Positions 27,883-28,701 of a stretch of DNA of 42,417 bases are shown piece after piece. The translations under genes were made by a program, and so were the position numbers. The stretch's first letter is position 1. Each line of letters starts with the position of its first letter. The stretch is from a virus. Where the stretch lies: IMG/VR virus record IMGVR_UViG_3300011116_000431, positions 1 through 42,417 of that record. One strand, 5' to 3'. The notes under the pieces were generated by a model. It saw only the letters and a list, made by a program, of their open reading frames with translations. It did not search any database and was not told the origin of the DNA.

Positions 27883-28056
27883 TTACTCTACTACATCTCC
27901 TGATGCAAATCGAGCTTCTTTTAGATACTCATACAACCCATTAACAATAACACTGGTAACCGTCACGCCGTCTTTCTTAGCCTGCTCCTGAGCAGCGTGC
28001 CACAGTTCATCGTCAATCCGTACGGATCTAGCTGGTGTGTTTGATGAATTAACCAT
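27883..28056 (-). CDS. Ribbon-helix-helix repressor
   Basis: Start at ATG 28056, only 8 bases downstream of a TATAAT, so a leaderless mRNA is predicted (common in actinobacteria); an upstream in-frame ATG at 28101 would run through the promoter and operator. The 57-aa protein has the RHH core: strand SVRIDDELW, helix HAAQEQAKKD, GVTVTSVIVNGLYEYL. Dimers insert the strands into DNA. The operator-like palindrome over the promoter suggests autorepression. Confidence 0.8.
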   Translation of the reverse strand: MVNSSNTPARSVRIDDELWHAAQEQAKKDGVTVTSVIVNGLYEYLKEARFASGDVVE

Positions 28057-28063
28057 AATTAAT

Positions 28064-28092
28064 ATTATACAAAACTTGTATATACAATACAG
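28064..28092 (-). promoter_or_regulatory. Leaderless promoter and RHH operator
   Basis: On the minus strand TATAAT occupies 28064-28069; a weak -35 (CTGTAT, 28087-28092) sits 17 bases away. The 17-base palindrome TATACAA-AAC-TTGTATA spans 28066-28082 and overlaps the -10 box. A repressor there would block polymerase binding directly. Confidence 0.65.
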
Positions 28093-28106
28093 GCTATACA
28101 TATACG

Positions 28107-28186
28107 TGGAGCAGCAGGGAATCGAACCCTGGTCCTAAGTACTACCGACATGCGGTTTTAATACTTAGTCGAAACCATCCTGCCCC
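28107..28186 (-). ncRNA. 80-nt tmRNA-like RNA: tRNA-like domain only, no mRNA-like domain
   Basis: Read leftward from 28186, the 5' end is GGGGCAGGATGGTTTCGAC, very like the start of actinobacterial tmRNA, and the 3' end is GGAC followed by T-arm CAGGG-TTCGATT-CCCTG and CTGCTCCA. The acceptor stem GGGGCAG/CTGCTCC is fully paired with the G3-U70 alanine identity pair. CTAAGTA/TACTTAG forms helix P2. Between its strands, where tmRNA has a tag ORF and pseudoknots, only 20 bases remain (with CCG-CATGT-CGG). It lacks encoded CCA. It lies 12 bases beyond the end of the SLT gene and 15 bases before the RHH promoter. Confidence 0.8.
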
Positions 28187-28198
28187 GATACCCCTATT

Positions 28199-28657
28199 CT
28201 AGTACCAGCGGTGATAGTTCCAGAACGATAAGGCTCCACAAGGGGTTCCATACCGTTTTTTAATGTACCTTAAACCCCAGTTAATCTGAGTCTCTGGACT
28301 GGACCACCAACCCTTGCCCATCTTGCTACCTGGGAGAGCTTGTGGGATCCCGTGAGCGCCTGATGAGGAGTTATGTGCATTAACTCTCCACCCACTCTCG
28401 TTATTCCATAGGGTGTGTAAACAAGAGAACTGAGCCCCACACCAATCGTATCTAGCCGCCATAGTTGTTTGGGCTAGTCTCTTGTTGTAAGTGGGTGAGG
28501 CGTAGGGTACACGAGTGTACGACCTAGACGCAGCTTGCGCTTTGCATTTTGTCTGTTTCGCATTAGCGTTAGCCTGACTCTGGGCTGCAGGTAGCGATAC
28601 TAGCAAGCTAGCAAGAAGCGCTACAGCGGGAGCCAGACGTTTGGTTCTGTCTAACAT
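28199..28657 (-). CDS. Secreted SLT-type transglycosylase (lysin-like)
   Basis: Start at ATG 28657 (GGTGGAAG just upstream; a first ATG at 28678 has no ribosome site). 152 aa with a signal peptide: basic MLDRTKR, hydrophobic LAPAVALLASLLVSLPA, likely cleavage after AAQSQANA. The C-terminal domain has catalytic E87 (LWNNESGWRVNAHN), SSSGAHGIPQALPGSKM and FWNYHRWY, the actinobacterial transglycosylase pattern. It cleaves peptidoglycan glycan chains. With the M23 enzyme it could act in lysis or in remodelling; the signal peptide implies Sec export. Confidence 0.88.
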   Translation of the reverse strand: MLDRTKRLAPAVALLASLLVSLPAAQSQANANAKQTKCKAQAASRSYTRVPYASPTYNKRLAQTTMAARYDWCGAQFSCLHTLWNNESGWRVNAHNSSSGAHGIPQALPGSKMGKGWWSSPETQINWGLRYIKKRYGTPCGALSFWNYHRWY

Positions 28658-28701
28658 TACTTCCACCGTACCACACATCTACGGCACGGTCAACCAAGCA
28701 A

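Follow-up and report, generated by a model that had tools for sequence, protein, structure and literature searches.

A tmRNA without its tag reading frame has been described both in a phage and in organelles. The tmRNA of mycobacteriophage DS6A is listed as 'TLD only' in a passage of PMC4131195, where it is also stated, citing Mao et al. 2009, that a similar molecule strongly inhibits tmRNA whether or not it can be charged, and where titration of SmpB is offered as a possible cause of that inhibition. A passage of PMC11915505 repeats the account of DS6A and describes mitochondrial tmRNA and two plastid genes without a tag frame; the two passages disagree slightly on what was tested, the molecule of DS6A or one like it. 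As far as these passages go, the idea that a phage tmRNA without a tag acts as an inhibitor is already known, and the first-pass annotation of the present locus, which knew of no earlier description, has to be corrected: the TLD-only form is known for DS6A, and tag-less forms for mitochondria and some plastids. What is new is how widely the form is spread across phages, that its stems covary, and that G3-U70 is under selection.

The locus described here lies on the minus strand of the IMG/VR record IMGVR_UViG_3300011116_000431, the whole of which was analysed (42,417 nucleotides, the window), and positions 1–80 of the RNA run from 28186 down to 28107. The gene is that of a phage tmRNA cut down to the tRNA-like half, a small hairpin capping P2, and we think it rather likely that this RNA serves as a decoy blunting host trans-translation. 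Its parts and its two neighbours are the following:

28199..28678, minus strand: lytic-transglycosylase-like gene, upstream of the RNA (PHROG 12661, E 4e-29); it stops 12 nt short of the RNA
28107..28186, minus strand: tag-less tmRNA gene of 80 nt, counted up to the discriminator A73; consists of the tRNA-like domain and a capped P2 (RF00023, R1)
28180..28186, minus strand: acceptor 5' strand GGGGCAG with G3; 7/7 pairs with 28108–28114
28168..28179, minus strand: D-region GATGGTTTCGAC, with no D-stem; fits the tmRNA consensus
28162..28168, minus strand: P2 5' strand CTAAGTA; double changes in 6/7 pairs among 31 members
28144..28156, minus strand: inner hairpin ACCG-CATGT-CGGT, where a full tmRNA has its mRNA-like domain and pseudoknots (fold; change in relative L252)
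28135..28141, minus strand: P2 3' strand TACTTAG (fold and covariation)
28132..28135, minus strand: GGAC junction from P2 to the T-arm, its first G closing P2 (RF00023 match)
28115..28131, minus strand: T-arm CAGGG-TTCGATT-CCCTG; 5/5 paired, 3/5 pairs covary
28107..28114, minus strand: acceptor stem, 3' strand CTGCTCC including U70 (pairs with the 5' strand), followed by discriminator A73
27883..28101, minus strand: Arc-like repressor gene, downstream of the RNA (PHROG 6506, E 1e-8)

The tRNA-like domain is kept. The acceptor stem (7/7 pairs, including G3-U70) and the T-stem (5/5) are fully paired, and the RNA has a folding z of -3.1. G3-U70 and A73, the marks of an AlaRS substrate, are both present, and the three bases that follow A73 are CGT, so that CCA is not encoded. 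Only 32 nt separate the D-loop from GGAC, and they make up P2, of seven pairs, and one hairpin, the ACCG/CGGT cap around a 5-nt loop; the pseudoknots PK1–PK4 are absent. In known structures the tmRNA-type D-loop contacts SmpB and the T-loop. The Rfam tmRNA model RF00023 matches 28104–28186(-) from end to end (model positions 1–374, 64.4 bits, E 5e-23), which exceeds the curated gathering score of 47 on sequence and structure, and the alignment places no residue in the 288-position section of the mRNA-like domain and pseudoknots. The mRNA-like domain with its tag frame and stop is therefore missing from the RNA. This agrees with the first-pass annotation, which had read the locus as a tRNA-like domain that had lost both tag frame and pseudoknots and had proposed a tmRNA covariance model as the check. 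Model R1, which includes the window sequence among its building sequences, scores the RNA at 88.7 bits. ARAGORN calls neither a tRNA nor a tmRNA at 28107–28186; the program misses this gene. An ordinary tRNA was rejected on this absence of a tRNA call and on the internal loop and 5-nt capping loop of P2. A split or permuted tmRNA with its missing part elsewhere was rejected as well: there is no second tmRNA match in the 42,417-base record.

The fold of the tag-less RNA is under selection. It was tested on an alignment of 31 members selected on the pairing of their acceptor and T-stems. They reach a covariation score of 0.722, where shuffles give 0.139 and slid partners no more than 0.153, and 97.6% of the cells pair. 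P2 provides the fair test of the fold because it played no part in the choice of members, and there 93.4% of positions are paired, with double changes in six of the seven pairs; three of the five T-stem pairs covary. Among the 12 members that came from protein homology or from isolates, P2 is 96.4% paired; when the partners are swapped the figure is 51.6%. The same is seen on a finer scale in close relatives of the window: a P2 pair has gone from T-A to C-G in L283, an inner-hairpin pair from G-C to C-G in L252, and an acceptor-stem pair from C-G to T-A in L264. These compensatory changes exclude a chance match, and all three stems covary, in line with the earlier suggestion of a fold kept under selection. 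A further close relative, L253, has the same genes on either side but lacks exactly the RNA gene (L253:3526-3646 versus L252:5578-5771) and retains the adjoining tRNA gene, which the window does not have and which lies directly 3' of the RNA in L252 and L283. The presence or absence of the gene and the single-step changes indicate that it is a unit that is gained or lost and kept folded when present.

These changes also bear on the proposal that the locus is an attachment site or a piece of a host tmRNA gene in decay, which we regard as most improbable. Integrase phages such as Milly can indeed carry an adjoining copy of the 3' half of ssrA, with similar T-arm matches. Here, however, both ends of the molecule are present and paired with each other, every stem has compensatory changes, and the flanking genes of the window encode a transglycosylase and a repressor rather than an integrase. 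An attachment-site scar or debris is thus ruled out by covariation, and the attP-type copy of Milly, which adjoins the integrase, gives no full-length R1 match.

The same RNA occurs in further phages, a search of which was proposed at first reading. The cultured carriers are five Streptomyces phages and one Stenotrophomonas phage. In BRock, GiJojo, LuckySocke and pSt2308 it lies between tRNA-Val(tac) and tRNA-Ser (76–86 bits with R1); in Streptomyces phage Shaeky it lies within a tRNA array; and in Stenotrophomonas phage Jojan60 it stands alongside four tRNAs and has an encoded CCA. None of the cultured-phage records examined annotates the tag-less RNA. Streptomyces phage Alone3 has an apparently decaying copy (L003:1976-2055, 56.9 bits with R1) with mismatches in the T-stem and P2 and an altered D-loop, while the copy of LuckySocke, whose gene order is nearly that of Alone3, is intact. 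The DNA polymerase, helicase and baseplate proteins of the window are closest to those of the Streptomyces phages BRock, GiJojo, LuckySocke, Alone3 and pSt2308 (31–40% identity), and for this reason the host of the window phage is likely actinobacterial.

A pattern scan of IMG/VR returned at least 119 stretches. At least 95 of them are built alike, with an acceptor stem of six or more pairs, the D-loop GGTTTCGAC, a short P2 with a small hairpin cap, GGAC and a T-arm with five stem pairs, the distance from D-loop to GGAC being 25–34 nt. These prevalence figures are lower bounds. Among the matches listed, the D-loop–GGAC spacing clusters at 28–31 nt. The listed matches include 86 distinct viral hits with 25–34 nt spacing; the acceptor stem is fully paired (seven pairs) in 74 of them and the T-stem (five pairs) in 85, and of these pairs the pattern had fixed only two, both in the T-stem. 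Since the pattern also prescribed some of the letters in the D-loop, GGAC and T-loop, their conservation in the pattern set is partly by construction; members found by other routes keep them with small changes, and relatives found without the D-loop as a search term keep it, one-base variants allowed. Almost every carrier is a fragment of uncultured origin. A similar scan of a genome collection gave mostly chance matches, with spacing scattered unlike that of the viral set and a handful of real ones, and all six cellular genomes behind structure-matching loci also carry a full-length tmRNA. One of the structure matches, among tRNA genes of Cellulosimicrobium cellulans MP1 (L229:568-649), falls below the Rfam cut-off in a sequenced isolate with a normal tmRNA; the locus is possibly a prophage. 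Unannotated tRNA-like RNAs of about 93 nt were also noted beside tRNA genes in the Microbacterium phages Armstrong (L292:538-630) and Quenya (L294:389-480); they have G3-U70 and a tmRNA-like T-arm together with another D-loop and a larger middle arm, and they are possibly a more divergent form of the tag-less RNA. Around homologues of the window helicase, only 7 of 40 loci have a match near that gene, from which it follows that the RNA is dispensable, a point against the decoy reading.

It had also been suggested that the loop itself might carry a minimal tag, GCA TGT CGG TAG. The frame exists in the window, and natural two-residue tags are reported in a passage of PMC11915505. The frame is not conserved, though: 20 of 83 members have a GCN frame running to a stop within P2, compared with 22.5 in shuffles (range 14–36), an in-frame stop follows the CCGC anchor in only 7 of the 47 members with that motif, and the stretch sits in a conserved hairpin. 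A very short tag is therefore hardly credible.

The alanine signal, by contrast, is kept. In 83 distinct sequences pair 3-70 is G-U in 80, and A73 is invariant (83/83); L231, one of the sequences without G3-U70, looks like a chance hit. Pairs 1, 2 and 7 are nearly fixed too, whereas pairs 4, 5 and 6 each take four to six pair types, and with neighbouring pairs turning over in this way neutral retention of G3-U70 is unlikely. The conservation thus points to selection for alanine charging. Simple titration of SmpB does not account for it, given that the inhibition reported in PMC4131195 is independent of charging, and a charged molecule that enters the ribosome is favoured.

Tag-less phage tmRNAs probably jam or short-circuit host ribosome rescue. 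In the decoy reading, RNase P would cut the RNA out of the operon transcript, a host enzyme would add CCA, and the RNA would receive alanine via G3-U70. Once charged, it would bind host SmpB and EF-Tu, and the tmRNA of the host would have a competitor both for SmpB and on ribosomes that broken mRNAs have stalled; a nascent chain moved to it would find no template to continue on, and no tag would be made. The net effect would be that host trans-translation, including the tagging of phage proteins, is turned off or blunted during infection. That the RNA is expressed, charged and bound by SmpB is inferred from which parts are conserved and from established tmRNA biology, and so is an effect on host trans-translation. 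SmpB would have to be that of the host, since a search of 38 carrier records found none (0/38), the same search being positive in ten bacterial controls. The first-pass annotation had already proposed a decoy, and the strong inhibition of tmRNA by a similar TLD-only molecule (PMC4131195, in the passage cited above) makes the proposal plausible. One carrier record of 37 (G004) also encodes a full-length tmRNA, which sits oddly with a pure antagonist (a match in G003 is weak and probably false). G004 is IMGVR_UViG_3300025362_000004, a 123-kb contig with the tag-less tmRNA (L023) at 46486-46567 and the full-length one at 77588-77979.

The kept G3-U70 pair fits ribosome entry and fits equally well another proposal, in which the alanine-charged RNA and host SmpB enter the stalled ribosome and take the nascent chain, and hydrolysis of the ArfA/ArfB type then recycles the ribosome, so that phage proteins are freed untagged, as has been suggested for mitochondrial tmRNA. 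Retention of this pair, needless for pure SmpB titration, is the feature that would tell such rescue from simple titration; the position of the RNA in phage tRNA arrays, as in the tRNA-Val/tRNA-Ser interval of BRock-type phages, is also in keeping with it. Were it true, there would be a phage-wide family of template-free rescue RNAs replacing tag-and-destroy rescue. We know of no release activity for a tag-less tmRNA-like molecule, which counts against this proposal. Mitochondrial tmRNA without a tag does persist along with SmpB, according to a passage of PMC11915505; on the other side, the effect of a comparable molecule in E. coli was inhibition of tmRNA (passages of PMC4131195 and PMC11915505). 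Tag-free rescue, the main rival of the decoy reading, seems on the whole unlikely, and a dead end that blocks host tagging is favoured over tag-free release because the published effect, as these passages give it, is inhibition.

The genomic setting raises a further possibility. The RNA fills the gap between the transglycosylase-like and the Arc-like repressor genes, all three on the same strand, and a scan for promoters and terminators around the RNA gene on its own strand gave nothing useful. Within such a same-strand operon, and with a tRNA gene directly following in L252 and L283, the RNA might be bait for host or prophage nucleases or toxins that attack tRNA or tmRNA, or an RNase P punctuation mark in the operon mRNA. 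Neither role needs the conserved, tmRNA-specific D-loop and P2, however, and a tRNA lies within 1 kb in only 19 of 102 loci, which makes both roles improbable.

If either the decoy or the tag-free rescue reading is right, about a hundred loci with covarying stems in phages of Streptomyces, of Stenotrophomonas and of many uncultured hosts would make interference with, or bypass of, host ribosome rescue a recurrent phage strategy. The kept G3-U70 leads to a testable prediction, namely that charging, and hence ribosome entry, matters in nature.

Compared with known systems, the window RNA shares with bacterial tmRNA (RF00023) the acceptor G3-U70, the D-loop without a D-stem, GGAC, the T-arm and the start of P2, but it has no mRNA-like domain, tag or pseudoknots, and its P2 is closed by a hairpin of 3–4 bp. 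Full-length tmRNAs are also phage-borne, often in tRNA arrays, as in the mycobacteriophages Cosmo and Phabba and Gordonia phage GMA2; these keep a gene of about 400 nt, unlike the 80-nt window RNA, and the tmRNA of EniyanLRS is annotated with its tag peptide. In GMA2 (L004) the full-length tmRNA, unannotated, lies at 622-1033 in a tRNA cluster and is followed by a Pistol ribozyme (1343-1399). Permuted tmRNA genes (RF04321) were seen in Stenotrophomonas phage QDWS359 (L293:976-1270) and Xanthomonas phage X1 (L295:571-899), where they are not annotated as such, and they look different from the window RNA. Mitochondrial tmRNA (RF02544) and the plastid tmRNAs of Mallomonadaceae, of about 65 bp, resemble it in having a tRNA-like domain and no tag frame; they are, however, organellar, and the mitochondrial gene is usually permuted, whereas the window RNA is a one-piece phage gene. 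A known system of the same kind, to judge by its description, is the 'TLD only' tmRNA of DS6A, a phage gene with little beyond the tRNA-like domain and with the same proposed inhibitor role; the passages of PMC4131195 and PMC11915505 name no phage other than DS6A with this form, while here the loci number about a hundred and the phages that carry them belong to several host groups.
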